Shown here one piece after another: positions 9,507-32,802 of a stretch of 64,000 nt of DNA; position 1 is the stretch's first letter, and each line of letters starts with the position of its first letter. Below the pieces are notes generated by a model. It was not told where the DNA came from. It did no database searches and saw only the letters and a list, made by a program, of their open reading frames with translations. The DNA is from Candidatus Zixiibacteriota bacterium (GTDB lineage: Bacteria; RBG-13-66-14; B26-G2; WVWN01). The position numbers and the translations under genes were made by a program. The stretch is taken from positions 3,367 through 67,366 of the forward strand of contig JAUWLW010000010.1 of the NCBI GenBank assembly GCA_030613505.1. The letters run 5' to 3'.

Positions 9507-10178
9507 CTATTGGTTGTAATACATCGCCTTTATTCTACCCCAGGCGTTTCCCTCGGTATTGGCGGCCGGGGATTCGCGGGGGCTGTTAATATTTTGAGGT
9601 TGAGGTTTGGCGCGTTCGCGGAAATCGGTCAGGTTATCGCCGGTGTCGTACGAGTTCCCGTTGACTTCATTGTGGGTCGGGCCGGATTTGCGCTCCAAGC
9701 CGTGGCCGGGGCTCACGCCCGGATACTGCGTGCCCTCGTAATAGGGCCAGCGCACCGGCCCCCAACCGACGGCGTCCCGTTTCTGGCCGCTGGCGTGCTC
9801 GAGTATAATGCCGCCCTCGCCCTTCATAAAATCCATCGAGAGATCACAATAGAAGTCGGGCTTATAGGAGTACTTCGACCAAGCGTCCCGGTCCTGCTCC
9901 CGGCCTATGAGGTAAAAACCGTGATTCGGGATTACGACCTTCTCCTGGCCTTTTTCCAACGCAACCCTTTCGAGGCCGCGCTTGGAAGCGATGCGTACCC
10001 GCCACTCGCTAAGGTCGACGTTGGTCTTGGCGGCGTTATAGAGCTCTATAAACGGCGGCGGCGAGCTTGCGTCGGGGTCGTACAAGACTTCGGATATAAA
10101 AATCTTGTCCGCCGGGTCGGCCGCAAAGCTAACGCCGACAAGCAGCACGCATACTAGTATGTACGCCGATACCCGCAA
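9507..10178 (-). CDS. Secreted lamin-tail-domain protein with the conserved C-terminal tag
   Basis: 223 residues. Residues 1-19 form a cleavable signal peptide. The body, from about residue 27 to 150, is a lamin-tail domain (Ile-Ser-Glu-Val-Leu-Tyr-Asp-Pro, then Phe-Ile-Glu-Leu-Tyr-Asn), an Ig-like fold common in extracellular proteins. The last residues are Trp-Gly-Arg-Ile-Lys-Ala-Met-Tyr-Tyr-Asn-Gln, a variant of the tag found on five other secreted proteins here (27326-32802). The start is TTG 10178, supported by a GGAGA ribosome site. Transcription probably starts from the promoter at 10203-10231 and ends at 9451-9483, so it is a single-gene unit. Function is unknown beyond surface or extracellular location. 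Confidence 0.8.
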   Translation of the reverse strand: MRVSAYILVCVLLVGVSFAADPADKIFISEVLYDPDASSPPPFIELYNAAKTNVDLSEWRVRIASKRGLERVALEKGQEKVVIPNHGFYLIGREQDRDAWSKYSYKPDFYCDLSMDFMKGEGGIILEHASGQKRDAVGWGPVRWPYYEGTQYPGVSPGHGLERKSGPTHNEVNGNSYDTGDNLTDFRERAKPQPQNINSPRESPAANTEGNAWGRIKAMYYNQ

Positions 10179-10202
10179 GCCACTTTTCTCCTCTCACTTA
10201 CC

Positions 10203-10231
10203 ATTATGTCAGAACAGGCCATATTTGTCAA
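10203..10231 (-). promoter_or_regulatory. Sigma-70-type promoter of the lamin-tail gene
   Basis: Minus-strand TTGACA (10226-10231), a 17-base spacer and CATAAT (10203-10208), about 25 bases upstream of the TTG start. Confidence 0.8.
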
Positions 10232-10401
10232 GCGAAAAAGAAGCTTGCTTCCTCTGCCGCAGCCGCACCCCCGCCCGAGTGGACTCGTAACCTAATATCG
10301 AGCTAAAACCCTACCCCTAATATCCGTAACGGGCGGCGCGTCCCCGTTTCAGCCCTTTTTGTAATCGTCTTGGCAACGTTTCCGGATACTCGCCGGCACA
10401 C

Positions 10402-10424
10402 AAAAAGGCGGCGTTCGAGCCGCC
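10402..10424 (-). terminator. Terminator after the zinc-ribbon pair
   Basis: Minus-strand GGCGGC / TCGAAC loop / GCCGCC followed by TTTTT, about 45 bases past the stop of the gene at 10470. The rest of the 10179-10469 spacer shows nothing else except the promoter at 10203-10231. Confidence 0.8.
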
Positions 10425-10469
10425 CCGCAGAGTTGCCACACGGTGAATTATATGGGTTCGGGCCGCCGT

Positions 10470-10664
10470 TCAGTAAGCGGCCGGTTTCGCGCGCTCGTCG
10501 TCGCGACGCGGCGTTACTACCTCTTCTCTCGCGTTATCCCAGTCGGCGTCGCCGCAACGGCAGGGCGGGAATTTATCGCCCCGGGACAGCGATACCTCGT
10601 GACCGCAATTATCGCAACGGTATACGTCCGTCAACGGCGTCGGCAATCCGGCACGGTACACCAT
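10470..10664 (-). CDS. Small zinc-ribbon protein
   Basis: 64 residues. A Tyr-Arg-Cys-Asp-Asn-Cys-Gly-His knuckle at about 15-22 pairs with Pro-Pro-Cys-Arg-Cys-Gly at about 33-38, giving a rubredoxin-like zinc ribbon. The pattern YxCxxCGxxxxxxxGxxFPPC is shared by a widespread group of small zinc-ribbon proteins of unknown role. The ribosome site GGAGGGG lies 5 bases before the ATG. It follows a second ribbon gene (10732-10872) by 67 bases, so both probably share the promoter at 10918-10946. Confidence 0.75.
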   Translation of the reverse strand: MVYRAGLPTPLTDVYRCDNCGHEVSLSRGDKFPPCRCGDADWDNAREEVVTPRRDDERAKPAAY

Positions 10665-10731
10665 AACTACCCCTCCAAATGCTCACGGCTCACGTTCACG
10701 CGCGTTCGTCCCCGACCGCCGGACGGTTCCC

Positions 10732-10872
10732 CTACCGGTATTCGGTCCCTTCACAATTCGGGCACGGCGGCAGCGCGTCGTCGGGGTCGTCGAGCCGCAC
10801 GATTTGGTCGCAGCTCGAGCACACGTATAACCCGACCCCGGGTTGTTCGCCAGTATTCGGCATTTCAACCAT
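10732..10872 (-). CDS. 46-residue rubredoxin-like zinc-ribbon microprotein
   Basis: Short gene read as 46 residues from ATG 10872; an internal ATG at 10863 is an alternative. It carries Tyr-Val-Cys-Ser-Ser-Cys and, after an Asp-rich stretch, Leu-Pro-Pro-Cys-Pro-Asn-Cys, a two-knuckle zinc ribbon like that of the next gene. The frame ends with TAG at 10732-10734. A strong promoter lies 46 bases upstream. The other minus-strand frame here (10683-10946) has no such motif. Function is unknown; such proteins may bind zinc or iron. Confidence 0.7.
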   Translation of the reverse strand: MVEMPNTGEQPGVGLYVCSSCDQIVRLDDPDDALPPCPNCEGTEYR

Positions 10873-10917
10873 CCCTTTCGCCTGCCGCGAGCCATACCCG
10901 CACGCGGGAAGCAGAAT

Positions 10918-10946
10918 ATATTAACCCAGGCCGCGTCGGTTGTCAA
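10918..10946 (-). promoter_or_regulatory. Sigma-70-type promoter of the zinc-ribbon pair
   Basis: Minus-strand TTGACA (10941-10946), a 17-base spacer and TAATAT (10918-10923). Confidence 0.8.
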
Positions 10947-11180
10947 AGGGATTTTAACCGCGGCGATGCGCCGTTTCCGCCGGAGGCCTTGGGTCCCCCG
11001 GCGGTTTCCTCTGTGGCGCTAACGCCAGGGCCCCAAATCGCGCAGGCGATGACGGCTAGTATCGCAGCTCTCCCCCGAAACGTCGTTTTCAACTCGCCCA
11101 AAAAATATAAAGGCCAACCACGGTGCGGCCGCCGAGCTGGCGAAGGGCCGGGCCCGGCGACAATCGTACCGCCATACTAC
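10947..11180. other. Non-coding spacer between divergent promoters
   Basis: About 230 bases between the zinc-ribbon promoter and the guaB promoter. I see no gene, RNA or clear repeat here, only a GC-rich imperfect inverted repeat around 10975-11005 (CCGCCGGAGG...CCCCCGGCGG). Confidence 0.5.
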
Positions 11181-11210
11181 TTGCCGGGGGTAGTTTATTT
11201 ATGCTATATT
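11181..11210 (+). promoter_or_regulatory. Probable promoter of guaB
   Basis: TTGCCG (11181-11186), an 18-base spacer and TATATT (11205-11210). The guaB ATG follows after 22 bases and has GGGAG as its ribosome site. Confidence 0.55.
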
Positions 11211-11232
11211 TAAAGTTAAAAGGGAGCAGCTC

Positions 11233-12726
11233 ATGGCCAAGTTCGACCCGAAGAAGATGGCGGTAACCTTCGACGACGTGCTGTTGAAACCCCGCTACAG
11301 CACCGTCCTCCCGCCGGACGTGGACGTCCGGACGCAATTCACGCGCCATATAAAGCTCAACGTCCCCATAGTATCCGCGGCGATGGATACCGTCACCGAG
11401 GCCGCGCTCGCCATAGCGCTCGCGCAGGAGGGCGGCATCGGCGTGATACACCGCAACATGTCGGCGGAAGAGCAGGCCGCCGAGGTCAACAAGGTCAAAC
11501 GCTACGTCTCCGGCATGATCGTCGACCCCTACACCCTCGCCCCCGACGCCCCCGTCGCCGACGCGCTCGCCATCATGGCCAACCACAAAATATCGGGCGT
11601 CCCCGTCGTCGACGCCGAGGGAGTTCTCGTAGGCATCATTACCAACCGCGACCTGCGCTTCGAGAAGCGCCGCGACATCCCGGTGGCCGAGCTGATGACG
11701 CGCGAGGGTCTGATAACCGCGCCGGTGAGGACCTCGCTCGAGAAGGCCAAAGAGCTGCTCCACAAGCACCGCATCGAAAAGTTGCCCATCGTCGACGCCA
11801 AGGGGCGCCTTAAGGGCCTCATAACCGTAAAAGACATCGCCAAAGCCATCGAGTACCCGAACGCCAGCAAGGACGGGCAAGGGCGACTGCGGGTCGCCGC
11901 GGCGGTGGGCGTGGGCGAACACGCGCTGGAGCGCGTCGAGCGGCTGCTGGAGAACGACTGCGACGTAGTCGTCGTGGACACCGCCCACGGCCACACCAAG
12001 GGCGTCATCGACGCCGTCAAGTCGATCAAGCGCAAGTTCAAGGGGGCCGAGGTGGCCGCGGGCAACGTCGGCACCGCGGAGGGGGCGGAAGCGCTTATAG
12101 CCGCGGGGGTTGACGGCGTCAAGGTGGGCATCGGGCCGAGCGCCATCTGCACCACCCGCGTCGTCGCCGGCGCCGGCGTCCCCCAGGTTACGGCCGTAAT
12201 GGAAGCGGCGCCCGCGTGCCGGAAGGCCAAGGTACCGCTGGTCGCCGACGGCGGCATCAAGTACTCCGGCGACATCACCAAGGCCGTCGCGGCCGGCGCC
12301 TCGTCGGTTATGATCGGCTCGCTCTTCGCGGGGACGGAGGAGAGCCCGGGCGAGCTTATCCTCTACGAGGGCCGCTCCTACAAATCCTACCGCGGCATGG
12401 GCAGTATGGGCGCGATGGGCGGCTCGGCGCTATCGCGCGACCGGTACGGCCAACCCGAAGACGCCGAGGCGGCGAAGCTCGTGCCGGAGGGCATCGAAGG
12501 CCGCGTCCCGTACCGGGGGCCGCTGTCGCAAGTGGTCTACCAGCTCGTCGGCGGCCTGCGCGCCGGCATGGGCTACTGCGGCGCTAAAAACGTCAAAACG
12601 CTGTGGAAGACCGCGGAGTTCTTCCGCGTTACGCCCGCCGGCCTGGCCGAGAGCCACCCCCACGACGTCCAGATAACCAAAGAGGCCCCCAACTACGGCG
12701 TCCGCACGCCGTGGGACAAGAAGTAA
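11233..12726 (+). CDS. guaB: Inosine-5'-monophosphate dehydrogenase
   Basis: 497 residues. It oxidises IMP to XMP with NAD, the committed step of GMP synthesis, in the cytoplasm. The TIM barrel is interrupted at about 95-210 by two CBS domains, as in full-length bacterial enzymes. The NAD/substrate region Asp-Thr-Ala-His-Gly-His is at about 250, the active-site loop [10 protein letters not shown] supplies the catalytic Cys at about 307, and the flap has Gly-Ser-Met-Gly-Ala-Met. The start ATG follows GGGAG. The DUF4126 gene begins 18 bases after the stop and may be co-transcribed. Confidence 0.97.
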
Positions 12727-12744
12727 GGACCCGGGAGGTAGGCC

Positions 12745-13734
12745 ATTCCCCCGGCAATCGTAATCGCCGCTCGCGCGCTCGGCATCCCGTTCCTGGCCGG
12801 GATTAATTTATACGTAACCGTCTTCGCGCTGGGCCTAATCAAAAAGCTCACCGGGACGACGGTGCTGGGGCCGGAGTTCGACGTCCTGGCGAGCTGGCCG
12901 GTACTAGTCGTCGCCGGCGTTCTCCTCGTCGTCGAGATCGTAGCCGATAAAATCCCGGCCGTGGACCATGTCTGGGACGCGGTCCACACCTTCGTACGGA
13001 CGCCGGGCGCGATGGTGGTCGTGGCGGTCATGATGCAGGGCCAGGACGTGACGTGGCAGGTTATCGCGATCCTGGTCGCGGGGGGCGTGGCGTTCGTGGC
13101 GCACGCGGGCAAGGCCACGGCTCGAGTCGCCTCCACTAAAACCACCGCGGCGACGGCCAACGCGTTCATAAGCGCCGCCGAAGACGTGTTCGTCGCCGTC
13201 GGGTCCGTGCTGGCCGCTTTCTACCCCGTCGTATTGGGCGCGCTGGTGCTGGCGGCGCTTCTCGCGGGGGCGATATTCAGCCCCAAGCTGGTCCGGGCTT
13301 TCCGCATAAGCTGGGCGGTCTCGTCGAACTACCTCCGGTACCTCTGCCGCAAGCTCCGCCGCCGGCTCGAGCCCGGTTGGCGGCCGAAGCGGAAGGCCGT
13401 CAATTTGCCGCCGCCGCTCCAGGACCTCGCGTTGGCGGAAGCGCCCCTCGGCGCGGCCCGGGTGCTGGAAGGCAAATACGGCCGGCGCCGCATGGGCTAC
13501 CTCCTGGTGTGGCGCGACCGGTTGGCGCTGTACGTTAAGCGGGTCGTGAAAGCGAAGGTCCGCGGCTACTATTACAAGGAACTTGAAGACGTTTACGTGG
13601 GCGAGGACACGTTGTTGGACCGGCTGTTCTTCGCCGCCCGCGGTCGGTCGTACGTGCTATCGTTCTTCAAAGGCCAAGAACCCGCGGCCGCCGACGTAGC
13701 GGGACTGATCGCCGCGGGTCGGGCGAAACCTTGA
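12745..13734 (+). CDS. DUF4126-family membrane protein with C-terminal PH-like region, apparent AUU start
   Basis: From 12745 the product is 329 residues. The family hallmarks run from the very N-terminus: Gly-Ile-Asn-Leu-Tyr at about 20, then Val-Glu-Ile-Val-Ala-Asp-Lys-Ile-Pro-Ala-Val-Asp at about 65. Several membrane segments follow to about residue 200. The last 110 residues are soluble, with alternating strands like a PH-type domain. The only standard start in frame is GTG 12862, which would remove the first conserved helix. ATT 12745 sits 5 bases after a perfect GGGAGGT ribosome site and right behind an in-frame TAG, so initiation at AUU is likely. A sequencing error is the alternative. 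Function of DUF4126 is not known. Confidence 0.7.
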   Translation: MPPAIVIAARALGIPFLAGINLYVTVFALGLIKKLTGTTVLGPEFDVLASWPVLVVAGVLLVVEIVADKIPAVDHVWDAVHTFVRTPGAMVVVAVMMQGQDVTWQVIAILVAGGVAFVAHAGKATARVASTKTTAATANAFISAAEDVFVAVGSVLAAFYPVVLGALVLAALLAGAIFSPKLVRAFRISWAVSSNYLRYLCRKLRRRLEPGWRPKRKAVNLPPPLQDLALAEAPLGAARVLEGKYGRRRMGYLLVWRDRLALYVKRVVKAKVRGYYYKELEDVYVGEDTLLDRLFFAARGRSYVLSFFKGQEPAAADVAGLIAAGRAKP

Positions 13735-13818
13735 CGGACGACGCGTCGAGAGCGGAAACGCCGAAACGGATAAAACCGGTGCGAAAGCCCTTAAACCGCG
13801 GCACAATAAACACACGAA

Positions 13819-15894
13819 GTGAAGAATAAGCATAAAGCGTTAGAGGTCTTGTTCGGCTTTTTAAGCGCGGCCGTGCCGTTCGCGGCTTACCTGATTACGC
13901 TGCCGACGACGATCACCTTCGAGGATTCGGGGCAAATCATCACCGCCGCGGCCAAGCTCGGCGTCTCCCACCCGTCGGGGTACCCGCTGGAGTCGCTTGT
14001 CGGCCAATTCTTCACGCTGGTCCCCTTCGGCCTCATAGCCTGGCGGGTTAACCTCGCGTCGGCGGCCGTAGCCGCGGCCTGTTGCCTCGTAATATTCTTT
14101 CTGCTCCGCCGCCTGTTCCTGGAGATCAAGGAAGACGCCCGGATAGCGGCGCCGGCTTCGGCGGCGGCCGCGGCGGCCGCTTTCGGTTTGGGCCGCGCAT
14201 TCTGGAGCCAGGCCGTCGTCGCCGAGGCGTACGCGGTAAACGCGCTAGCGCTCGCGGCCGTGTTATACGCGGCTTTCAACTTCGTCCGCACGCGCGACGC
14301 GAGGTGGGGATACCTCGCGGCCTTCCTCGGCGGCGTCGCGCTCAGCGCCCACACTTCCTCGGCCATAATATCGATACCGGTAGCGGCGTACCTGATCTGG
14401 CGGTTCCGGAGGTTGCCGAGCCTCCGCGCCTTTTCCGCGGCGCTGGCGCTCGTCTTGCTCGGGTTCATGGTGTACCTCTATTTACCGATCCGCGCCGTCC
14501 AAGGGCCGGCTATAAACTGGGGCGACCCCCGCACGCTGTCGCGCGCGTACGCCCACATTACGCGGCGGATGTACGGCGGCCCCAACCTGGTGCGGCTCCA
14601 GTTCCTGCCGTTTCATCTGCTCGAGATGGGGAAATTCCTGTGGTGGGAATTCGCGCCCCCCGCGACATTGGCCGTGGCTGCCGGGATATTCATAGGGTTG
14701 AAAAGGCGGGCCAAGCCGTGGGGCTTCCTGGCGTTGTTGTTGTTAGTAACGGGGCCGCTGGCGACGGTGGCGTTGGTCCTCCTCCTACAAGGGCACCAAA
14801 TTCCGGGTATTCAAGTTTGGTACATCCCCTTCTTTATGTTGTCGGCGCTGTTCTTGGGGCTGGCCCTCTTCAAGCTGACTACGAGGCGGAACGCCTGGGT
14901 TCGGCGCGGCGGATACGCCGCCCTCGCGCTCGCCGTGGCTTTGCCGCTGGCGTTTAATTTCTATTGGAACGACTACCGCGACTTCTACTTCGCCGAGGAC
15001 TACGGCGCCAATTTCCTCCGCACCATAGCGTACGGCGGCTTCAATATAATGTTCGAGCGCGGCTCGCTGGGAACTTTCGAGACCGCCTATTTAAAGAAAG
15101 TCGAGGGCCACCGACCGGACCACGTATTCGTCGACGCGACGGGGAGCGTGTACTCCGAGTACGGCCGGTTCGCCGCGGGCCGCCTCGACCCGCGAGACCC
15201 GGTAGCGGCGCGATTGTGGGAGCGCGCCTTCGAGCGGGATATTTTGACGTCGCCCTCCCACCAAGACGTCTACTACAGCATCGTCAGGGAAGAAGTTACG
15301 TCGTACGGCTTCGCCCTCGAGCCCGCCGGGATGTTGTTCCGCGTCGCGACGCCGCCGCTCGAGCGGCGGCCCGTATCGCCCGTTTGGAGCCGTTACGCCA
15401 TGCGGGGCGTCGCCGACGTCGAGGCCGACCCCGCCTCCCCGCGCTACCTGGCCGAAGAGTGGACCCGCGACGGCATTAGTAAATATAAGCTGATGTTGGC
15501 GAGAGATTATTACCTGGCGGGCGAGACCGACAGAGCGCTCGCCACACTCGCCGAGGCGGCGCCCATCGCCAACGATATGACGGAATCTTTGCTCGAGCTG
15601 GCCAATATCTACGCTTTGTACGGCTACTATGAAGAATCCATACCCTACTACGACCAGGCTCTCGAGGCTTTCCCGCGCAAAGGCGTAGGCGACGCGAGCT
15701 TCCGACTCCACTACGCTCAAATCCTGGCCAACAAAGCGATCGCGTACCTGCATATCGGCGACGTCGACGCCGCGGAGGAGGCCTTCCTCCAGTCGCTGGA
15801 AATCTACCCGGACAATCCCGACATCCGTCGCGTGGCGCGTCGCGAAAATCTCGAAGCGGCCGCTCGATTGTTCGCCGGCGGAAGCCAACCGTAA
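13819..15894 (+). CDS. DUF2723-family GT-C membrane glycosyltransferase with TPR tail
   Basis: 691 residues, GTG start. The N-terminus has the DUF2723 signature: Glu-Asp-Ser-Gly-Gln at about 34-38, followed by Gly-Val-Ser-His-Pro-Ser-Gly-Tyr-Pro-Leu. In this family the acidic residue in the first outer loop is the likely catalytic base of a lipid-linked sugar transferase, often compared with protein O-mannosyltransferases. About ten membrane segments follow to residue 385, then a soluble part. The last 130 residues contain TPR-like helices (Leu-Ala-Asn-Ile-Tyr-Ala-Leu-Tyr-Gly-Tyr-Tyr-Glu-Glu-Ser). It is followed by a second GT-C protein 123 bases later. Sugar and acceptor are unknown. Confidence 0.8.
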   Translation: MKNKHKALEVLFGFLSAAVPFAAYLITLPTTITFEDSGQIITAAAKLGVSHPSGYPLESLVGQFFTLVPFGLIAWRVNLASAAVAAACCLVIFFLLRRLFLEIKEDARIAAPASAAAAAAAFGLGRAFWSQAVVAEAYAVNALALAAVLYAAFNFVRTRDARWGYLAAFLGGVALSAHTSSAIISIPVAAYLIWRFRRLPSLRAFSAALALVLLGFMVYLYLPIRAVQGPAINWGDPRTLSRAYAHITRRMYGGPNLVRLQFLPFHLLEMGKFLWWEFAPPATLAVAAGIFIGLKRRAKPWGFLALLLLVTGPLATVALVLLLQGHQIPGIQVWYIPFFMLSALFLGLALFKLTTRRNAWVRRGGYAALALAVALPLAFNFYWNDYRDFYFAEDYGANFLRTIAYGGFNIMFERGSLGTFETAYLKKVEGHRPDHVFVDATGSVYSEYGRFAAGRLDPRDPVAARLWERAFERDILTSPSHQDVYYSIVREEVTSYGFALEPAGMLFRVATPPLERRPVSPVWSRYAMRGVADVEADPASPRYLAEEWTRDGISKYKLMLARDYYLAGETDRALATLAEAAPIANDMTESLLELANIYALYGYYEESIPYYDQALEAFPRKGVGDASFRLHYAQILANKAIAYLHIGDVDAAEEAFLQSLEIYPDNPDIRRVARRENLEAAARLFAGGSQP

Positions 15895-16017
15895 GCTTTC
15901 TCTAACGGCCCGCCGTTCGTCGAAGCGAGGCTGAGATAGTCAGTCGGATACCGGCCGGCGGAGCCGGGCGCCGAATGAACCACCACCCCCAACCGGACTT
16001 CAACCCAAACGCCGCTT

Positions 16018-17637: not shown

Positions 17638-17652
17638 ACTTCCCAGCGCCTT

Positions 17653-18234
17653 ATGGCGTCCAATACTAGCGGTGGAGAAAGAAAAAAGGCCGTCGTATCC
17701 CGGGAAATGGTGGACCGGGCCCGCGACGGCGACGACGAGGCGTTCGGCATCATCGTCGAGACCTACCGCGACCGGCTTTTCGGCTTGGCCTTGGGCATCG
17801 TGCGCAACAGGGATACGGCGGAAGACGTCGTACAAGAGGCGTTTATAAAGGCCTATAAAAACCTCAAACGCTTTCGCGGCGACGCCAGTATATATACTTG
17901 GTTGTACCGGATTGCGGTCAACACGGCGCATAACCACCTGAGGAAAGCGAAGCGGGCGGCGGAAGTTGACTTCGACGACGTGGCGCCTTTTATCGAAGCG
18001 CGCGGCCTCAACCCGGCCGAAAGCGCCGCCAACGTGGAACTGGGGGAGGCCATCGACGGCGCCGTCCGCCAGCTGCCGCCGCGCCAACAGGAGGTCTTTA
18101 TACTGCACTACTTCGAACAGATGACTCATCGCGAGATAGCGGAGACGCTGGGCGTAACGGAAGGGGCGGTGAAAGCCAATTTCTTCCACGCCGTACAAAA
18201 ACTCAAAGGGGCGTTAAGACCGTACGTAACGTAA
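17653..18234 (+). CDS. ECF-type RNA polymerase sigma factor
   Basis: 193 residues, RpoE-like. Region 2 (about 25-90) has Asp-Glu-Ala-Phe-Gly-Ile-Ile-Val and Asp-Val-Val-Gln-Glu-Ala-Phe-Ile-Lys-Ala. Region 4 (about 135-190) has Leu-Pro-Pro-Arg-Gln-Gln-Glu-Val-Phe and a helix-turn-helix at His-Arg-Glu-Ile-Ala-Glu-Thr-Leu-Gly-Val. It directs RNA polymerase to stress or envelope promoters. The next gene, 13 bases away, encodes its probable zinc anti-sigma factor, and a Spy-like protein follows, a common three-gene layout. No autoregulatory promoter could be confirmed upstream because the gene lies only 15 bases after the GT-C gene. Confidence 0.95.
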   Translation: MASNTSGGERKKAVVSREMVDRARDGDDEAFGIIVETYRDRLFGLALGIVRNRDTAEDVVQEAFIKAYKNLKRFRGDASIYTWLYRIAVNTAHNHLRKAKRAAEVDFDDVAPFIEARGLNPAESAANVELGEAIDGAVRQLPPRQQEVFILHYFEQMTHREIAETLGVTEGAVKANFFHAVQKLKGALRPYVT

Positions 18235-18247
18235 ACAGGTAACGAAC

Positions 18248-19453: not shown

Positions 19454-19479
19454 TCCCACAGGTTACCGGGGGTATTGCG

Positions 19480-19992: not shown

Positions 19993-20013
19993 AGCCATCT
20001 CCGCGAAAATATA

Positions 20014-20039
20014 ACGCCCGGGTGCGCCGGGCGTTTTTT
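20014..20039 (+). terminator. Terminator of the sigma-factor operon
   Basis: ACGCCCGG / 5-base loop / CCGGGCGT followed by TTTTT, 22 bases after the stop at 19992. Confidence 0.88.
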
Positions 20040-20071
20040 ATTGCGCGCTTCCGTGATCGTCGGCGCGCCCC

Positions 20072-20236: not shown

Positions 20237-20254
20237 GAGCACTGCTCCCGTCTG

Positions 20255-24211: not shown

Positions 24212-24216
24212 TTCGG

Positions 24217-26109: not shown

Positions 26110-26164
26110 GACGAAATACTATCACACAACTCAAGACGCGCGCAACATCGCGCCCCGAGTTGCT

Positions 26165-26186
26165 AAAAAGCCGCCCGGCGGGCGGC
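26165..26186 (-). terminator. Terminator after archease
   Basis: Minus-strand GCCGCCC / short loop / GGGCGGC followed by TTTTT, 22 bases past the archease stop. Confidence 0.8.
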
Positions 26187-26208
26187 AAACGCTCGTGCCG
26201 ACGCGGCC

Positions 26209-26631
26209 CTACAAGTCGAAAATTACGCGCGCGAGGTACGTGCCGTCGTCCTTCTGTTCGACGGCGAAGTCCCCGTAAGTTACGTTTTTAATCTCGCCGT
26301 GAGGCTTATGGCGGTCGAAGTCGAGCTCCTCGCCCCACAGCGTAACCGCGAGCTTGGTATCGCCGTCGCGGAAGTCGAAGCTGAACTTCTTAAAGGCCAG
26401 CTCCTGCGCGTCGAGCAGGTACAATAGCTCCGCCAGCCACTCGTGAAAGAGCTCGGCCAGGTCGGGGGCCGCGAGCTCGAGCCGCCGTTTAACCTCGGCC
26501 TCGACGGCGTCGTAGTCGAGCGCCAGTTGATACAAAGCCCGCGCCCCCAGGACGAAGAGTTCCTCCCGGGAAGCGGCGGTAATCTCGACGCCGGCGTCGG
26601 CGGTATGGTCTATATATCTTATGCTGCCCAT
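26209..26631 (-). CDS. Archease
   Basis: 140 residues, full family length. The start Tyr-Ile-Asp-His-Thr-Ala-Asp-Ala-Gly-Val-Glu-Ile holds the conserved metal-site Asp/His residues, and the C-terminus ends Val-Ile-Phe-Asp-Leu, with acidic residues that complete the site in known archeases. Archease speeds multiple turnover of the RNA ligase RtcB in RNA repair or tRNA splicing. RtcB is not in this window. It follows ispF by 28 bases and shares its promoter. The other candidate reading frames here are antisense. Confidence 0.92.
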   Translation of the reverse strand: MGSIRYIDHTADAGVEITAASREELFVLGARALYQLALDYDAVEAEVKRRLELAAPDLAELFHEWLAELLYLLDAQELAFKKFSFDFRDGDTKLAVTLWGEELDFDRHKPHGEIKNVTYGDFAVEQKDDGTYLARVIFDL

Positions 26632-26659
26632 TTCGGCGACGAGAGAGCCCCGGACCCTT

Positions 26660-27142
26660 TTACCCCTCGAACGGTACGAGCAACACCGTCGCCCACGCCG
26701 CTATGGCCTCCCCTTCGCCGATGTAGCCGAAGCCCTCGTTCGTCTTGGCCTTGACGCCCACCGCCGCCACGCCCACGCCCAGGAGTTCCGCGACGCGGGC
26801 GCGCACCCGGTCGACGTACTTGGCGAGGCGGGGGCGCTCGACGATTACCACGCAGTCGACGTTGCCGACCCTCAAACCCTCGGCCTCGACCATGGTCCGC
26901 ACTTCGGCCAGGAGTTTCGCGCTGTCCGCGCCCTTGAAGCGAACGTCGGTATCCGGGAATTGGTGGCCGATGTCCTTGAGCGCGGCGGCGCCCAACATCG
27001 CGTCCATAATGGCGTGCAGCAGGACGTCGCCGTCGGAGTGGCCCGCCAGGCCCCGCTCGTAGGGGACCTCCACGCCGCCCAGCATCAGAGGCCCGTCGTT
27101 CCTGAAGCCGTGCACGTCGTACCCTATGCCTATTCTGGTCAT
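26660..27142 (-). CDS. ispF: 2-C-methyl-D-erythritol 2,4-cyclodiphosphate synthase
   Basis: 160 residues. It forms the cyclic diphosphate in the MEP isoprenoid pathway. Zinc-site residues are seen in Gly-Tyr-Asp-Val-His-Gly-Phe (Asp8, His10) and Gly-His-Ser-Asp-Gly-Asp-Val (His about 35). The conserved Asp-Ile-Gly-His-Gln-Phe-Pro-Asp-Thr-Asp run is at about 57-66, and Lys-Thr-Asn-Glu-Gly near 131. It is not fused to IspD. A clear promoter lies 13 bases upstream, and archease follows. Confidence 0.97.
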   Translation of the reverse strand: MTRIGIGYDVHGFRNDGPLMLGGVEVPYERGLAGHSDGDVLLHAIMDAMLGAAALKDIGHQFPDTDVRFKGADSAKLLAEVRTMVEAEGLRVGNVDCVVIVERPRLAKYVDRVRARVAELLGVGVAAVGVKAKTNEGFGYIGEGEAIAAWATVLLVPFEG

Positions 27143-27154
27143 ATTCCGACGGCC

Positions 27155-27183
27155 ATTATAACAACGTATCGGCTCGGCGGCAA
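27155..27183 (-). promoter_or_regulatory. Sigma-70-type promoter of ispF-archease
   Basis: Minus-strand TTGCCG (27178-27183), a 17-base spacer and TATAAT (27155-27160). Confidence 0.75.
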
Positions 27184-27280
27184 CGGCTTAAATATCCGCC
27201 TTTTTCCGCGCCGCGGGAATTATAGCCCGCCGCCCTAAATGCCACAAAAGTGCACCTTAAAATGGCACGGAGTTCTTTAG

Positions 27281-27308
27281 TAAAAACGCCCGGCGCGCGC
27301 CGGGCGTT
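27281..27308 (-). terminator. Terminator after the propeller-like secreted gene
   Basis: Palindrome ACGCCCGGCGC / GCGCCGGGCGT with TTTTTA on the minus strand, 18 bases past the stop at 27326. The plus side has only TTTCTT. Confidence 0.8.
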
Positions 27309-27325
27309 TCTTAGGGGGTACGCTC

Positions 27326-28063
27326 TTACCTAAACAACGCCTTCACGCGGCCGAGGGAGGCGGGGAAAACGGCGGTATCTGAACGCCAATAGAAGTAATA
27401 ATGGTCCGTCGCGTCGTCCACGATGTATAAGTGCCAATCGTAAGGCGGCAACGTACCCCATGTATAACTTAACCCCACCGGCGTTTGGAGGCCGGTGATG
27501 ACCGGAACGCCGTCCTCATATACCGTACGGGTCCCGGAATCCGAAACGTAAAAATGGGCGTAGCCGCCGCAACCGACAGGCCGCCGCCCCGGGCCGGCGT
27601 ACGTACCGATAAGGGACCCCGTCGTATAGTTTAAAACGGCGACAATATTCCGGTCCGGAATCGCGACTATGAAACCGGGCCACGCGAATTCGCAATCGGC
27701 AGGTCCGGTAAAGGGGCAGCGGAAAGAATTAACTACCGACCCTTGGGTCGTCGTTTCGTATATCCACGACGTCCGGTTGTTGGTAACGAAAAAACCGCCG
27801 CCCGGTTCTTTTGCTATCCCCCACGCCCCCGGCCCGCCAGGCGCCGGGAAACTAGAAAGGATAGAGCTCTCCTCCCACCAATAATGATAAATGCGCGGAT
27901 TAGCGCCATCCATAACGATATAACCTGCGGCGGGACCGCCGCCCCAATAGCCCCGCGGATTAGGGCCGGGCGTGGGGTACGAGGCGATCAACTTCCACTC
28001 ATCTGCGATAGCCGCGACCCCAGTATAAAAAATTACCGACGCCAGTATAAATAACCTCTTCAT
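27326..28063 (-). CDS. Secreted propeller-like protein with the conserved C-terminal tag
   Basis: 245 residues. Signal peptide about 1-20 (Met-Lys-Arg-Leu-Phe, hydrophobic core, Ala-Ile-Ala). The middle has repeating strands with Gly-Pro-Gly-Ala-Trp-Gly-Ile-Ala and Gly-Gly-Phe-Phe-Val-Thr-Asn, like an NHL-type or lactonase-like propeller, but no family hallmark is firm. It ends Pro-Ala-Ser-Leu-Gly-Arg-Val-Lys-Ala-Leu-Phe-Arg, the tag shared with five other exported proteins in this window. A 73-residue exported protein is encoded 4 bases upstream, and the two look translationally coupled. Function unknown. Confidence 0.7.
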   Translation of the reverse strand: MKRLFILASVIFYTGVAAIADEWKLIASYPTPGPNPRGYWGGGPAAGYIVMDGANPRIYHYWWEESSILSSFPAPGGPGAWGIAKEPGGGFFVTNNRTSWIYETTTQGSVVNSFRCPFTGPADCEFAWPGFIVAIPDRNIVAVLNYTTGSLIGTYAGPGRRPVGCGGYAHFYVSDSGTRTVYEDGVPVITGLQTPVGLSYTWGTLPPYDWHLYIVDDATDHYYFYWRSDTAVFPASLGRVKALFR

Positions 28064-28067
28064 CGGT

Positions 28068-28289
28068 TTAATCGCCGCCTATGGCTACGTTATCCTTGGT
28101 GGCCGGCTTGTAGTCATGCTTGGTGGCCGTGAGTTTGCCGTCGGAGAAGTCGTGCAAGAGGTCCTTAAATTTCAGTTTGCCATTGTAGCTGTCGCGGGAG
28201 CCCCAATGGCCCTCATAGACCCAATCGCCGAAGACATAAACGGCCGCCAGCGCCAGCGCCGCGGCCGCAATCGTCGTTACCTTCTTCAT
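28068..28289 (-). CDS. Small exported protein of unknown function
   Basis: 73 residues. Met-Lys-Lys-Val-Thr-Thr then an Ala-rich hydrophobic run to about residue 21 gives a signal peptide or anchor. The mature part has Trp-Gly-Ser-Arg-Asp-Ser-Tyr-Asn-Gly-Lys-Leu-Lys-Phe and is rich in Lys and Asp. A GGAGG ribosome site precedes ATG 28289. The tagged propeller-like gene follows 4 bases after its stop. No known domain was recognised, and it lacks the C-terminal tag. Confidence 0.6.
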   Translation of the reverse strand: MKKVTTIAAAALALAAVYVFGDWVYEGHWGSRDSYNGKLKFKDLLHDFSDGKLTATKHDYKPATKDNVAIGGD

Positions 28290-28382
28290 TTCGCCAGACC
28301 TCCTCTGCTATTATCCCTTACCCTAAACTATAGCACGGCGCTTTTCACAACTCCACTAAAAAGGACATATCTTTAAACGGCT

Positions 28383-28487
28383 AAGGTGGGCGCACCTAAA
28401 GGTACGGCCCTACGACAAGGGGCGTTAACCGGCGGTTTTAACCGCCGGGTTGCCCCTTGCCCAAGCCGGGCGACTAGCCAGTCGCCC
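28383..28487. repeat. Dispersed palindromic repeat cluster, copy 2
   Basis: Bases 28383-28414 match the block at 7981-8011 closely (AGGTG..CGCACCT.AAGGTACGG, then CCCTACG). Two palindromes follow: 28431-28446 (GGCGGTTT / AACCGCC type) and 28468-28487 (GGGCGACT / AGCC / AGTCGCCC). The element abuts the stop codon of the HAD gene at 28488. No gene is seen in 28290-28487. Confidence 0.7.
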
Positions 28488-29210
28488 CTACTTAAAGGCG
28501 CTTCCGACCAACGGCACCACGTCACGCACGTCGGCCACCTCGTAGTCGGCCTCGGCCTCGGCGGCCCACCGCGCCACCTCCGGGCCGTCCCGCCGGACCC
28601 ATACGGTCCTGAGTCCCGCTTTACGCGCGGTGATGACGTCCTCCACCGGCGAGTCGCCCACGTACAGGACCCGGGCCGGCGGAAGGCCCGCCGTCGCGCA
28701 TATCTTCTCGTAGATAGCGACGTCCGGCTTGAAGACGCCCATCTCCTCGGCGACCGCGACCCATCGGAAGTACTTCTCCCAGCCCAGCCGGGCGATCTTG
28801 GGCCGCTGGATGTCGGTGAAGCCGTTGGTGAGGAGGCCGAGGGGGAGGAGCGGCTCGAGCGCCGCGAGCGTCTCCTCGGCTCCCGGCAGCGGGTAGCTGA
28901 GGGTCAAGTAGATATCGAGATATTCGCGCCCCAAGGCCGCGGCGTCGGCCGGCGGCGCCGCACCCACCAGCGCGAAGAGCTCGGCGAACCGCCGCCCGCG
29001 GAGGCTCGTCACGTCGATCTCGCCGGTGGCGAGCTTCAGCCACATACGCTGGTTGACGTCGAAGAAGAGGCGGGCGAATTCGTCGACCGTCGTCCCGGTA
29101 TCGGCCACGCGGTGGCGCCGGTATACCTCCGCCAGCGCCTCGCGCGCGGCGCGGCGATGGTCGTACAGCGTATTGTCGAGGTCGAAGAAAACCGCCGCGG
29201 GCTTCTCCAA
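28488..29210 (-). CDS. HAD-superfamily hydrolase (subfamily IA)
   Basis: About 240 residues from TTG 29210, chosen because AAAGGA lies 7 bases upstream; a longer frame opens at 29255. Motif I is Phe-Phe-Asp-Leu-Asp-Asn-Thr-Leu, motif II Leu-Leu-Thr-Asn-Gly-Phe, motif III Lys in Arg-Pro-Lys-Ile-Ala, and motif IV Val-Gly-Asp-Ser-Pro-Val-Glu-Asp. The helical cap is of the YjjG / HAD-IA kind. Such enzymes remove phosphate from small metabolites such as nucleotides or sugar phosphates. The substrate cannot be read from sequence. It lies 51 bases after the stop of the tagged secreted trio on the same strand. Confidence 0.88.
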   Translation of the reverse strand: MEKPAAVFFDLDNTLYDHRRAAREALAEVYRRHRVADTGTTVDEFARLFFDVNQRMWLKLATGEIDVTSLRGRRFAELFALVGAAPPADAAALGREYLDIYLTLSYPLPGAEETLAALEPLLPLGLLTNGFTDIQRPKIARLGWEKYFRWVAVAEEMGVFKPDVAIYEKICATAGLPPARVLYVGDSPVEDVITARKAGLRTVWVRRDGPEVARWAAEAEADYEVADVRDVVPLVGSAFK

Positions 29211-29261
29211 AGAGTAATTCCTTTCGCGCCGGCCGGCTGCGGCCGGAGGTCGCAACCGGAC

Positions 29262-29912
29262 CTAGCGATATAGCGCCTTGACGCGCCCGAAGGACGCCGG
29301 CGTTACGGCCGGGTAGAAGCCGAAACTGATCCGCGCGTTGTATCCCCACTCGCCCACCGTTCCCGTCGCGGCCCGGTAGTCGTACGCGACGCAATGGTGC
29401 GCCGATAGTTTGCCCGTCAAAACGAGGACTTTACCTCCCGTCCCCGACTCCCACGTTATTTCCAAAATCAAGTTCTCGCGGTTGTTGTACTCGAACGTCT
29501 CCGCCATCGGGATGGGATAGACGCCCTGGATTTCCGGTAATTCGTAGCTCGAGAAGCTCGCGACCAGCTTGGGCGTATTGCCGCCGTAGTTGGAGGCGAA
29601 ATCCGCGGTCAAGGCCGCGAGCGGCGTATGGCAAAGGTAAAATTTGACGTTCCGGAAGGTGGCCGTCGTCTCGTTCTTCTCCAGCTCGAACTCGTTAATA
29701 GTCCCCGCGTAATCTATGCGGCTCTGGTCGAACAGCATCTGCATCCGCAACGCCGGCCGCCACGCCACCCAGGGATGGTCGCTCGGCTCGCCGCCGACGT
29801 GAACGTAGACCTGTTTGCCCGTCGCGGCCGCCGCGGCAACGACGGCCAAAGACGCGACGACGCCGAAGAAAACAGCTCGCCTTACCATCCCGACCTCCTC
29901 GGTCAAAGTCAC
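29262..29912 (-). CDS. Secreted beta-sandwich-like protein with the conserved tag, paralogue 3 of 3
   Basis: 216 residues with a signal peptide at about 8-28. The family signature is shared with the next two genes: Arg-x-Gln-Met-Leu-Phe-Asp, then Ile-Asp-Tyr-Ala-Gly-Thr-Ile, then Phe-Tyr-Leu-Cys-His-Thr, then Asn-Tyr-Gly-Gly-Asn-Thr-Pro-Lys-Leu-Val, then Tyr-Pro-Ile-Pro-Met-Ala-Glu-Thr-Phe-Glu-Tyr-Asn-Asn. Comparable strand-rich secreted domains occur widely in FCB-type bacteria, without known function. It ends Pro-Ala-Ser-Phe-Gly-Arg-Val-Lys-Ala-Leu-Tyr-Arg. This is the last member of a three-gene tandem array. Confidence 0.75.
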   Translation of the reverse strand: MTLTEEVGMVRRAVFFGVVASLAVVAAAAATGKQVYVHVGGEPSDHPWVAWRPALRMQMLFDQSRIDYAGTINEFELEKNETTATFRNVKFYLCHTPLAALTADFASNYGGNTPKLVASFSSYELPEIQGVYPIPMAETFEYNNRENLILEITWESGTGGKVLVLTGKLSAHHCVAYDYRAATGTVGEWGYNARISFGFYPAVTPASFGRVKALYR

Positions 29913-29923
29913 GGTACGTCGGC

Positions 29924-30544
29924 TCAGCGGTAGAGCGCCTTGACGCGGCCGAAGGACGCCGGCTCAATCCCCTTGTAGGTGTCGAAGGAAATGCGGGCGT
30001 TTAATCCCACGTTCGCGACGGTCCCGATCGTAGCCTTCGCGTCGTGAGCGTAACAGACGTGCGCCGTTACCGTACCCGATAACAACGTCACCTTTTGCCG
30101 GCCGCCCGTCTCCCACGTTACCTCTAAAATGAGATTATCGCGGTTGTTGTAATCGAACGTCTCCGCCATCGGGATGGGATAAACGCCCTCGACCGCGGGC
30201 AACTTGTAGGTCGAAAAGCTCGCCACCAGTTTGGGCGTATTGCCGCCGTAGTTGGCGTTGAAATCCGTTACCAGCGCCGAGAGCGGCGTGTGACACAGGT
30301 AGAACTTGACGTTGCCGTACTCGCCCACGTAGACTTGTTTCTCCAATTCGAACTCGGTGATCGTCCCGGCGTAGTCGATCTTGTCCCGGTCGAACAGCAT
30401 CTGACACCGCATGCCTTCGTTGGGAGAGTACCAAGGGTAGATGGAACCCGAGCTGCCGTTTAAGATATAAACGGCGTGGCCCGTGGCGAAAGCCGAACCC
30501 GCGCAAAGCGCCGCGGCCGCAAACGATAAAATTATCGTTCTCAT
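29924..30544 (-). CDS. Secreted beta-sandwich-like protein with the conserved tag, paralogue 2 of 3
   Basis: 206 residues. Signal peptide about 1-21. It shares most of its length with both neighbours, most closely with the gene at 29262. The Phe-Tyr-Leu-Cys-His-Thr and Tyr-Pro-Ile-Pro-Met-Ala-Glu-Thr-Phe-Asp-Tyr-Asn-Asn blocks are intact. Its last residues are Pro-Ala-Ser-Phe-Gly-Arg-Val-Lys-Ala-Leu-Tyr-Arg. The downstream paralogue begins 11 bases after it ends. Together with the gene upstream it is probably expressed from the promoter at 31292-31320. Confidence 0.75.
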   Translation of the reverse strand: MRTIILSFAAAALCAGSAFATGHAVYILNGSSGSIYPWYSPNEGMRCQMLFDRDKIDYAGTITEFELEKQVYVGEYGNVKFYLCHTPLSALVTDFNANYGGNTPKLVASFSTYKLPAVEGVYPIPMAETFDYNNRDNLILEVTWETGGRQKVTLLSGTVTAHVCYAHDAKATIGTVANVGLNARISFDTYKGIEPASFGRVKALYR

Positions 30545-30578
30545 GCGCGAACCTCCTCTCTCGAAAAAGCGCTCCCTG

Positions 30579-31223
30579 CTACCGAAACAAAGCCTTAAGG
30601 CGGCCGAACGACGCCGGCGCGACGCCCGGGTACTTGTCGAAGACGATCAAGCCGTTATAGGCGAGCTTGCTCACCTGGCCGGTCGTGGCCCGGTAGTCCC
30701 AGGCGAAGCACCGATGGCCGTCGATGGGCCCGCTCCTTAAGCGGCACATCGTGTTGCTGAGGTCCGACGATTCCCACGTGACCTCGAAGAGGAGGTTGTC
30801 GACGTTGTTGTAAGCGAACGTCTCGGCCATCGGAATAGGGTACGGCCCCACCACCGCCGGCAACGTGTAGCTCGCGAAGCTGGCTACCATCTTGGGCGTA
30901 TTATTGTCGTAGTTGGCCTGGAAGCTCGTCGTAAACGACGAAAGGCCCGTGTGACACAGGTAGAACTTAACGTTCTTAAACGTTGACGAAACGGCGTCGG
31001 ACTTCTCCAACTTGAACTCGGTGACGGTCCCGGCGTAGGCGATGTATGCCTGGTCGAAAAGCATCTGGCAACGCGTGCTGAGTAGCGTGGGATGCGCCCA
31101 CCACGGGATGGCGTTCATACCCTCGCCGTACTTGACGTAAACCTCGTGGCCGGTGGCGAACGCGGCCGGCGCCCAAGCAAGACAAACCGCTAACGCGGCC
31201 ACCTTCACAACGTAGATCCTCAT
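30579..31223 (-). CDS. Secreted beta-sandwich-like protein with the conserved tag, paralogue 1 of 3
   Basis: 214 residues, first of the tandem trio. Signal peptide about 1-24 (ending Ala-Ala-Phe-Ala). Same domain as the two genes downstream, with Cys-Gln-Met-Leu-Phe-Asp, Phe-Tyr-Leu-Cys-His-Thr and Pro-Ile-Pro-Met-Ala-Glu-Thr-Phe-Ala-Tyr-Asn. It is somewhat more diverged, with Asn-Tyr-Asp-Asn-Asn-Thr-Pro in place of the Gly-Gly form. The C-terminus is Pro-Ala-Ser-Phe-Gly-Arg-Leu-Lys-Ala-Leu-Phe-Arg. A strong promoter lies about 70 bases upstream. Confidence 0.75.
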   Translation of the reverse strand: MRIYVVKVAALAVCLAWAPAAFATGHEVYVKYGEGMNAIPWWAHPTLLSTRCQMLFDQAYIAYAGTVTEFKLEKSDAVSSTFKNVKFYLCHTGLSSFTTSFQANYDNNTPKMVASFASYTLPAVVGPYPIPMAETFAYNNVDNLLFEVTWESSDLSNTMCRLRSGPIDGHRCFAWDYRATTGQVSKLAYNGLIVFDKYPGVAPASFGRLKALFR

Positions 31224-31291
31224 ACCTCACCTCCGTTCTCCTGTTAGCGCTCGTCGGCGGCGATTGCCGCAACGCGAACCCGAACCATCTC

Positions 31292-31320
31292 AATATATCA
31301 GAGCCGCCGCCCTAAGTCAA
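31292..31320 (-). promoter_or_regulatory. Sigma-70-type promoter of the secreted trio
   Basis: Minus-strand TTGACT (31315-31320), a 17-base spacer and TATATT (31292-31297). Confidence 0.78.
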
Positions 31321-31378
31321 ATTCCTTAGACATGGGCCGACGGCGCCGCTCGGGACCCCACACGGCCCGAGTAGCTTT

Positions 31379-31407
31379 TTGACGAAACGACGTTTTAATG
31401 TCATAAT
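31379..31407 (+). promoter_or_regulatory. Sigma-70-type promoter of a short unit
   Basis: TTGACG (31379-31384), a 17-base spacer and CATAAT (31402-31407). It points right, divergent from the secreted trio promoter, towards a terminator at 31621-31650. Confidence 0.7.
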
Positions 31408-31413
31408 CATATA

Positions 31414-31650
31414 GGAGTTTGCGAGAGCCGACGTTAAACGATTCCGGCCCGAGCAGCGACTAAATAATGATGAAAGAGAACAATACGCGACGGAGCCCGG
31501 CCAGGTCTCCGTGATAAAATTGGCCGGCCGCGTACGGCGCCTGACGGTGGTGGAAGACAGCGCGGACGCCGCAAAACGCGAAACCGGCCAATCGGTTTAA
31601 TCAACTTCTTAGCGTACCCGCGGGCCCCTTCCGGGGCCCGTTTCTTTTTT
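31414..31650 (+). ncRNA. Candidate small RNA or leader-sized transcript of about 235 bases
   Basis: The unit is bounded by the promoter at 31379-31407 and the terminator at 31621-31650. No start codon with a ribosome site gives a convincing protein. The frame from about 31414 to 31600 is open for roughly 62 codons but lacks ATG, GTG or TTG in its first half; a GTG inside it would give only 29 residues. A hairpin AAACCG / GCCAAT / CGGTTT lies near 31580-31598, just before the terminator. It does not look like 6S, tmRNA, SRP or RNase P RNA to me. Confidence 0.4.
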
Positions 31651-32337
31651 CCGGAGTTCGGCCAGCAACCCCCTAATTTCGCGAAGGGTAGTAAAAATAT
31701 GCGTCGGCGACACCGTCGAGCGGCCGTGTTCCCGCGGCAGGTGCCGCACGCCGCGCTCGAGCACCGATACGCCGGCGCGCTTGAGCTTTACCATAAGTTC
31801 CGTGTCTATGAAAAATTTATCCGAATGGAGCGCCAGCGCCTGGAGCTCGCGCCGCGGGAGGAATTTGAACGAGCAGTCGACGTCGCGGACCTTCAGGCCG
31901 AAGAGAACGCGGACCAGCAAATTATAGCCCCGGGAGACGAAGCGGCGAAGGGCGCCCTCCGCGCGGCCCACGCGGTACCCGACGACCGCGTTTCCGCCGT
32001 CGAGCAAAGGCAAAAAGGCGAGCATCTCGCCGAGGTCGAATTGGCCGTCGGCGTCGGTGTAGAAGACGTAATCCTCGGCCGCGGCGGCGAAGGCGTCGCG
32101 CAGGCTCTTGCCGTAGCCTTCGTTGTTTCGGTGCGTCACGACGCGGAGGGACGCTATTTCGCCGCCGAGGCGCTCGAGGAACTGCGGCGTTTCGTCGCTC
32201 GAGCCGTCGTCGACGATAATTATCTCGTGGTCGACGCCGGCGCTCCCGAGCGTCTCGTCGAACGCGCGGACGACGCCCTCGATATTCCCGGCTTCGTTGA
32301 ACGCCGGCGCGCAGACGCTAATGGAGTAGGCCGCCAC
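31609..32337 (-). CDS. GT2 glycosyltransferase (polyprenyl-phosphate sugar synthase type)
   Basis: 242 residues. GT-A fold with Val-Cys-Ala-Pro-Ala-Phe-Asn-Glu at the start, the nucleotide-site Ile-Val-Asp-Asp-Gly-Ser-Ser-Asp at about 40-47, and the metal-binding Thr-Asp-Ala-Asp-Gly-Gln-Phe at about 94-100. No membrane segments follow, which fits soluble or peripheral DPM1-like enzymes that make polyprenyl-phosphate mannose or glucose. Such a product is the usual donor for GT-C enzymes like those at 13819-17637. Its last codons overlap a plus-strand terminator hairpin (31621-31650). Confidence 0.88.
   Translation of the reverse strand: MAAYSISVCAPAFNEAGNIEGVVRAFDETLGSAGVDHEIIIVDDGSSDETPQFLERLGGEIASLRVVTHRNNEGYGKSLRDAFAAAAEDYVFYTDADGQFDLGEMLAFLPLLDGGNAVVGYRVGRAEGALRRFVSRGYNLLVRVLFGLKVRDVDCSFKFLPRRELQALALHSDKFFIDTELMVKLKRAGVSVLERGVRHLPREHGRSTVSPTHIFTTLREIRGLLAELRKKETGPGRGPRVR
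31621..31650 (+). terminator. Plus-strand terminator inside the 3' end of the GT2 gene
   Basis: CGGGCCCC / TTCC / GGGGCCCG followed by TTTCTTTTTT. It has the U-tract on the plus strand only, so it serves the short unit starting at 31379, not the GT2 gene. Confidence 0.8.
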
Positions 32338-32395
32338 GCCGCCACTATAAGAATAAACGCGGCCGGCCGCAACCCCAAACGCCGGGCACCGCGGC

Positions 32396-32424
32396 TTGAC
32401 TTATTATGATATTTCGGCTAATAT
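32396..32424 (+). promoter_or_regulatory. Sigma-70-type promoter of the cupredoxin gene
   Basis: TTGACT (32396-32401), a 17-base spacer and TAATAT (32419-32424). The ribosome site AAAGGAGG and ATG 32446 follow. Confidence 0.85.
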
Positions 32425-32445
32425 ATAGATAAAGGAGGTTAGATT

Positions 32446-32802
32446 ATGAAAAGGTGCGTGTTTTTAACGGCGGCCTTACTGGCGTGCGGCGTAGCGGCGC
32501 TCGCGCTAACCGAAATCAAAATACAGAATTTCGCCTTCGTACCCCAAAACGTAGTAGTCCAGAAGGGCGAAATGGTCCAGTGGACCAACCTCGACGCGGT
32601 GGTCCATACGTCGACTTCCAACACGCTCGTCTGGGACTCCGGCGACATCAAACCGAACGAGTCCTACAAGCGCAAATTCAACAAGACCGGTTTCTTCCCC
32701 TACTATTGCAAATACCACACGCAAATGAAGGGGACGGTGCGCGTAACGGAGACGGCCGTAGCGCCGACTTCTTTCGGCCGCGTCAGAGCGCTGTTCCGGT
32801 AA
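32446..32802 (+). CDS. Secreted plastocyanin-like cupredoxin with the conserved C-terminal tag
   Basis: 118 residues. Signal peptide about 1-21. The single cupredoxin domain has the type-1 copper ligands His54, Cys88, His91 and Met94 (Tyr-Tyr-Cys-Lys-Tyr-His-Thr-Gln-Met). This is a small blue-copper electron carrier, expected in the periplasm or on the surface. After the domain come about twelve residues ending Ala-Pro-Thr-Ser-Phe-Gly-Arg-Val-Arg-Ala-Leu-Phe-Arg, which are not part of the copper fold and match the tag on the other secreted proteins. It is a single-gene unit with its own promoter and terminator. Confidence 0.93.
   Translation: MKRCVFLTAALLACGVAALALTEIKIQNFAFVPQNVVVQKGEMVQWTNLDAVVHTSTSNTLVWDSGDIKPNESYKRKFNKTGFFPYYCKYHTQMKGTVRVTETAVAPTSFGRVRALFR

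Follow-up and report, generated by a model that had tools for sequence, protein, structure and literature searches.

The closest described counterpart of the element considered here is the type-A domain of the type IX secretion system (PF18962 / TIGR04183), an immunoglobulin-like (Ig-like) beta domain of 70-80 residues, which stands at the C-terminus of Sec-exported proteins of many folds, has a basic last residue and requires PorU, PorV and SprA. In Prevotella intermedia, shortened signals of 43-55 residues with three beta strands and the motifs B, D and E are used alongside the long form (PMC11969387). Of the HBP35 domain, only the final 22 residues, which comprise two beta strands and the motifs D and E, are reported to be absolutely required for the export of GFP and to support it (cited in PMC11969387). 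The shuttles of the system, PorV, which serves type-A domains, and PorP/SprF-like proteins, which serve type B, help to set the destination (PMC12618676). The stretch of 64,000 nucleotides analysed here (the window; contig JAUWLW010000010.1 of a Candidatus Zixiibacteriota bacterium) encodes six exported proteins that end in a C-terminal tail, hereafter the tag, of about 14-17 residues. The tag resembles the type-A domain in its terminal position, in its occurrence on many folds of Sec-exported proteins, in its basic last residue and in its presence in the same genomes and even on the same domain families, where PorU, PorV and SprA are also found; however, it contains no Ig-like domain. Like the short P. 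intermedia domains, it is a shortened signal beside a long one, but it has none of their strands or motifs and is predicted to be helical or disordered. The HBP35 end differs from it in structure and sequence, although what is reported of it suggests that a peptide of the tag's size can drive type IX export.

Short C-terminal homology regions on many unrelated exported proteins of one genome are also known from PEP-CTERM, GlyGly-CTERM and LPXTG, but these consist of a hydrophobic transmembrane helix, a basic end and a protease or transpeptidase motif. The original prediction, made from the window alone, had set the tag apart from PEP-CTERM, LPXTG and the type-A domain, and this was borne out, as the composition of the tail offers no hydrophobic helix and no PF18962 match was found among the tagged proteins scanned. 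Encapsulin cargo-loading peptides are likewise short, C-terminal, hydrophobic and basic, and lie at the end of a flexible tail; their cargo is cytoplasmic, whereas that of the tag carries signal peptides. No curated model over the tail was seen in NCBIfam (release June 2026) or Pfam, searches in which speed filters may lose short models, and no description of its sequence was found in the searched literature, which covered few subscription papers or preprints. Within these databases and this literature, the tag is undescribed, as had been proposed.

The tag is strictly terminal, is conserved in a receptor-like manner and can stand in for lipid anchors as well as type IX domains; it is therefore best read as a post-Sec sorting tag. 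We regard it as a minimal C-terminal signal which sends Sec-exported domains to the outer membrane or beyond it, with type IX and a PorV-family shuttle as the most likely route, and assign this reading a probability of about 0.5. The sorting role is well supported, and type IX as the machine is what we infer, since it is the sole known two-signal route of diderm bacteria whose parts are always present in the tagged genomes. The genes of the window that bear on this reading are the following.

9507-10178, minus strand: exported lamin-tail-domain protein (Pfam LTD, E-value 4e-12), W form of the tag, AWGRIKAMYYNQ, at the C-terminus (codons 9507-9542)
27326-28063, minus strand: exported propeller-like protein (by sequence and clustering), tag ...PASLGRVKALFR (27326-27355, core plus stop)
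29262-29888, minus strand: exported beta-sandwich protein, paralogue 1, tag ...PASFGRVKALYR (open reading frame opens at 29912, likely start 29888)
29924-30544, minus strand: exported beta-sandwich protein, paralogue 2, tag ...PASFGRVKALYR (by sequence and paralogue comparison)
30579-31223, minus strand: exported beta-sandwich protein, paralogue 3, tag ...PASFGRLKALFR (low-confidence flexible tail in the structure model, residues 198-214)
32446-32802, plus strand: exported cupredoxin (Pfam), tag ...PTSFGRVRALFR past the copper domain (residues 101-118)
741-3182, minus strand: comparison protein without the tag, by homology an M28 peptidase with a BNR propeller and a terminal type IX type-A-like domain

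The six tails and their coordinates were as predicted (SLGRVKALFR at 27326, SFGRVKALYR at 29262 and 29924, SFGRLKALFR at 30579, SFGRVRALFR at 32446 and AWGRIKAMYYNQ at 9507), and a loose core pattern applied to all six frames of the 64 kb returned six matches, which are these tails, 1-3 residues before the stop. The 9507 product carries the W form with three additional residues. The six proteins had been called unrelated. Unrelated folds indeed share the tag, but not six families of them, because the products of 29262, 29924 and 30579 are tandem paralogues (about 54-55% identical) and the window therefore holds four: lamin-tail, propeller-like, beta-sandwich and cupredoxin. A fold search with the domain of the 30579 protein gave weak matches only, to beta-sandwich, lectin-like or carbohydrate-binding-module-like folds (template modelling score <0.5). 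In the cupredoxin, the Pfam copper domain stops at residue 100 of 118, which agrees with the claim that its tag lies outside that domain. The beta-sandwich family has about 20 tagged members and the family of the 27326 protein about 22 in the sampled part of the window's genome (the home genome); gene and signal-peptide counts for this genome refer to 740 kb of stretches picked around tag and type IX matches, plus the window, and its copy numbers come from whole-genome pattern searches.

The tag consensus is [VT]-x-[P/E]-x-[ST]-[WLFV]-G-x-[VI]-K-[AS]-[LM]-[FY]-[RK]-COOH. The core had been recognised correctly from the window and the length underestimated, as the core follows V-x-P-[AT]-S in tails of the home genus, where V(-14) is kept in 83, P(-12) in 91 and S(-10) in 92 of 93 tails, and G(-8) and K/R(-5) in all 93. 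A stop-anchored DNA pattern with two mismatches matched the 2.86-Mb home genome 129 times, against one match for the reversed pattern, and a second pattern with one mismatch 146 times against none; reversed-pattern controls were about zero across all scans. Moreover, the strict core occurred 65 times at C-termini and never internally in the sampled stretches and window, so that the excess at C-termini over other positions, a check set beforehand, was plainly present. Variation among the tag codons was concentrated at third positions (1.18 bits vs 0.51 at first and 0.31 at second positions). Synonymous positions are free to vary, which indicates that constraint acts on the protein and not on the DNA. 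Some degenerate tags were also seen (SLGRGKALFR, SLGRVKVLFR and SVGRIKALMR, at L040:3238-4173, L042:5267-5770 and L054:11478-12437), possibly decaying or tolerated variants.

The tag is carried by exported proteins of many kinds. With signal peptides called by a simple home-made rule, 70/87 tagged proteins of the home sample had one, compared with 170/497 untagged proteins (p 6e-16). Under uniform treatment, the loci of other phyla gave 39/48 tagged and 67/415 untagged (p 7e-20), and the proposed enrichment of the tag on signal-peptide proteins was thus found both at home and beyond. A lipobox was predicted in 2/70 tagged home proteins, both doubtful. After removal of signal peptide and tail, the tagged proteins of the home sample fell into 14 unrelated clusters, and 80 longer tagged proteins of other phyla into 42, with Pfam domains that include beta-helix, NHL, CHRD and CBM_20. 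Tagged proteins were small (median 257 amino acids) relative to the type-A cargo of the home sample (median 646).

Within families, the tag takes the place of the 70-80-residue type IX domain or of an N-terminal lipid anchor, as judged from comparison of homologous sequences. The home genome has 33 matches to the type-A domain, and the tag and this domain were not seen on one protein among the tagged proteins examined. The BNR propeller occurs in three contexts, namely with the tag (L054:11478-12437), with M28 and the type-A domain (window 741-3182) and in a predicted lipoprotein (L059:393-1451). Among NHL propellers, 5/7 intact untagged proteins have a lipobox, against at most 2/35 tagged ones (p 5e-4); the lipoproteins stop at the last blade, and the tagged proteins run about 17 residues further. 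The untagged NHL-propeller lipoproteins homologous to tagged propellers are encoded at L077:3357-5368, L060:12613-13545, L047:13892-14995 and L047:18184-19158. Two Eisenbacteria proteins, L138:1196-1831 and L145:1363-2550, combine a lipobox-like signal peptide with the W tag and so depart from the exclusivity observed at home.

A further case of exchange is provided by a small secreted FnIII-like protein of about 130 residues, which ends in WGSIKALFR or WGSIKAMFR and accounts for the tags found in single copy. It is usually present once per genome and was found in several phyla, including one in which 10 of 13 genomes have exactly one copy of the tag. These proteins are homologous to the FnIII-like domain that precedes the type-A domain in home cargo (e.g. 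L268:9751-10962), with E-values down to 5e-7. When 22 members from several phyla were aligned, the last nine residues held 8 of the 11 invariant columns, and the remainder was poorly conserved. In the predicted structure, a linker connects a beta sandwich to a C-terminal helix at residues 120-129, with a predicted local distance difference test score of about 55-61. In the model of the 30579 protein, confidence is high for the domain and low for the tail (198-214), which is disordered with a short helix. Both models place the tag outside the folded domain, and it is therefore regarded as a loosely tethered element, its helix being a prediction of modest confidence.

The tag is widespread among bacteria. 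In a survey of 145 genomes, 14 of the home phylum and the rest scattered over the domain Bacteria, the W form was detected in 12 genomes outside the home phylum, with 1-35 copies each, plus one match judged spurious; the reversed control gave two matches in total. The usual first core residue outside the home phylum is W, and the residue before it, which the search pattern left free, was S or T in 78 of 82 cases, and is therefore an independent sign of genuine tags. A scan of named genomes found at least 117 stretches with the tag pattern, and among the matches listed are Eisenbacteria, Krumholzibacteria, Gemmatimonadota-labelled bins, Ignavibacteria, Thermochlorobacter, Caldithrix (Calditrichota) and Stygiobacter electus. 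One phylum had the tag in 65/80 genomes (reversed pattern, 0), and another, which serves only as a negative control, in 0/167. In a distant family of the home phylum (G008:C133, G009:C330, G010:C329), the tag seemingly ends in Glu (WGEIKALYE), and its copies there are therefore probably undercounted.

The distribution of the tag follows that of type IX components. PorU, PorV-family and SprA matches were found in 14/14 genomes of the home phylum. Outside it, the tag was present in 11/22 genomes with PorU above the curated cut-off and in 1/109 others (p 2e-9, in a test that takes no account of kinship among phyla), and the single tagged genome below the cut-off, G082, has a PorU homologue at 8e-69. 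The SprA match was strong in 11 of these 12 tagged genomes. Apart from the match judged spurious, the tag was not found in any genome of the 145-genome survey that lacks a PorU homologue. It was absent from about a dozen genomes in which PorV-family proteins are present without a full PorU. In a large phylum, PorU matches were seen in 80/80 genomes, tagged or untagged alike; type IX may therefore be a requirement for the tag but does not suffice for it. Several PorV-family members are present in tagged genomes, and shuttles play a role in destination; therefore, a shuttle is the natural candidate for the receptor.

The proposed mechanism comprises several steps. The Sec signal peptide would take the protein across the inner membrane, and the tag, joined by a short flexible linker to a self-contained exported domain, would be recognised in the periplasm or at the outer membrane, where it may fold as a short basic amphipathic helix, presumably in the bound state. 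A PorV-family shuttle may act as its receptor, and the protein would then be sent to or over the outer membrane, most likely by the type IX translocon. The tag would thus be a short alternative to the type-A domain.

Several observations weigh against this proposal. The described type IX signals have at least 43 residues, beta structure and the motifs B, D and E (PMC11969387), and the tag, with about 17 residues, shows none of these. Genome G116, which has a single tag, has a weak SprA match, some PorU-positive phyla have no tag, and 17 tagged home open reading frames lack a predicted signal peptide, in part owing to misplaced starts. The co-occurrence of the tag with type IX may merely reflect the relatedness of the phyla. 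Moreover, the proximity of PorV-family genes to tagged genes is a weak trend only, and no receptor has been identified. Because the shortest type IX signals found described, with 43-55 residues in three beta strands, are far longer than the tag (PMC11969387), a serious alternative, albeit a less likely one, is a separate and undescribed system for export or anchoring that has a receptor of its own and happens to share its phyla with type IX. It would also account for a tail predicted as helical rather than beta, for the presence of over 30 ordinary type-A domains beside it in one genome, for the many PorU-positive phyla without the tag, and for the division between small tagged and large type-A cargo, as though two machines split the load. 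However, no candidate machine was seen, the tag, apart from the match judged spurious, keeps to genomes with a PorU homologue in the 145-genome survey, and in homologous architectures it sits at the position of the type-A domain. The original prediction had proposed an undescribed export or anchoring route; the shared tag on unrelated Sec-exported proteins was confirmed, and a route apart from type IX is not established. The tag occurs within PorU/PorV/SprA genomes and at the place of the type IX domain, so that the case for an alternative type IX signal is no weaker than that for an independent route.

The near exclusivity of the tag and the N-terminal lipid anchor in the NHL family, as if both anchor, could also mean that the tail is a retention or anchoring peptide and no translocation signal, that is, a basic amphipathic helix which binds the outer membrane, lipopolysaccharide, peptidoglycan or a periplasmic scaffold. 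A basic, predicted helical tail on a flexible tether would suit such a role; however, the conservation of S(-10), of the invariant G and of K/R(-5) exceeds what membrane binding needs and therefore suggests a protein receptor, and the exchange with the type-A domain is left unexplained, which makes anchoring a doubtful explanation. A short tag with a fixed carboxyl end would also fit a peptide-binding receptor of another kind, a periplasmic chaperone or protease for which it marks exported proteins for quality control or degradation. This is very unlikely, as the tag is found on more than 100 genes for stable-looking secreted domains, and type-A cargo and most lipoprotein homologues lack it. 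The least probable explanation, close to negligible, is a copying artefact by duplicated 3' ends or a mobile DNA repeat. In its favour, the window has three tandem paralogues and several families form expanded arrays, but the tag is found in many unrelated families, is conserved across phyla and varies freely at synonymous positions. The free variation of third codon positions contradicts a DNA-repeat origin, and the family clusters, at home and elsewhere, contradict one recent duplication of the 3' end as the sole cause, an event that the original prediction had named as grounds for refutation. Type I secretion was rejected, since its cargoes are not known to carry Sec signal peptides, and an autotransporter-type C-terminus was rejected for want of a beta barrel.

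As a sequence signature, the tag makes it possible to recognise surface or secreted proteins in several phyla of which hardly any members have been cultured, and with more than 100 tagged proteins in the window's genome alone, it represents a class of sorting signal overlooked by standard annotation. If it acts through type IX, it would be the shortest type IX signal that we know of, and the element recognised by the translocon would be separable from the usual Ig-like domain; if it does not, an unknown outer-membrane route exists in these bacteria. A broader and more speculative proposal, to which we give some credence, is that of a new two-signal pathway of diderm bacteria, for both export and display, which spans many phyla in the neighbourhood of Fibrobacteres, Chlorobi and Bacteroidetes. 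In such a pathway, a C-terminal helix of 9-14 residues with its own receptor would replace a whole secretion domain and the FnIII-like WGSIKA[LM]FR protein would be an ancestral component or a universal client.

The FnIII-like protein is encoded at L177:4234-4629, which belongs to the named strain Stygiobacter electus, and at the loci L130, L125, L136, L143, L154, L174, L176, L280, L281, L283-L285, L090 and L288-L296; no constant neighbour gene was seen among these loci, except Maf in four loci labelled Ignavibacteria/Chlorobiota. PorV-family genes lie 0.3-2 kb from tagged genes in L281, L280, L077, L178, L103 and L129, possible shuttle-cargo pairs in a sample of short loci that is biased. In the window, positions 28068-28289 (minus strand), which adjoin the tagged 27326 gene, encode a remnant of 73 residues of a secreted NHL-propeller protein, with the signal peptide and the start of the first repeat; it is a truncated copy from the largest tagged family of the home genome (NHL).

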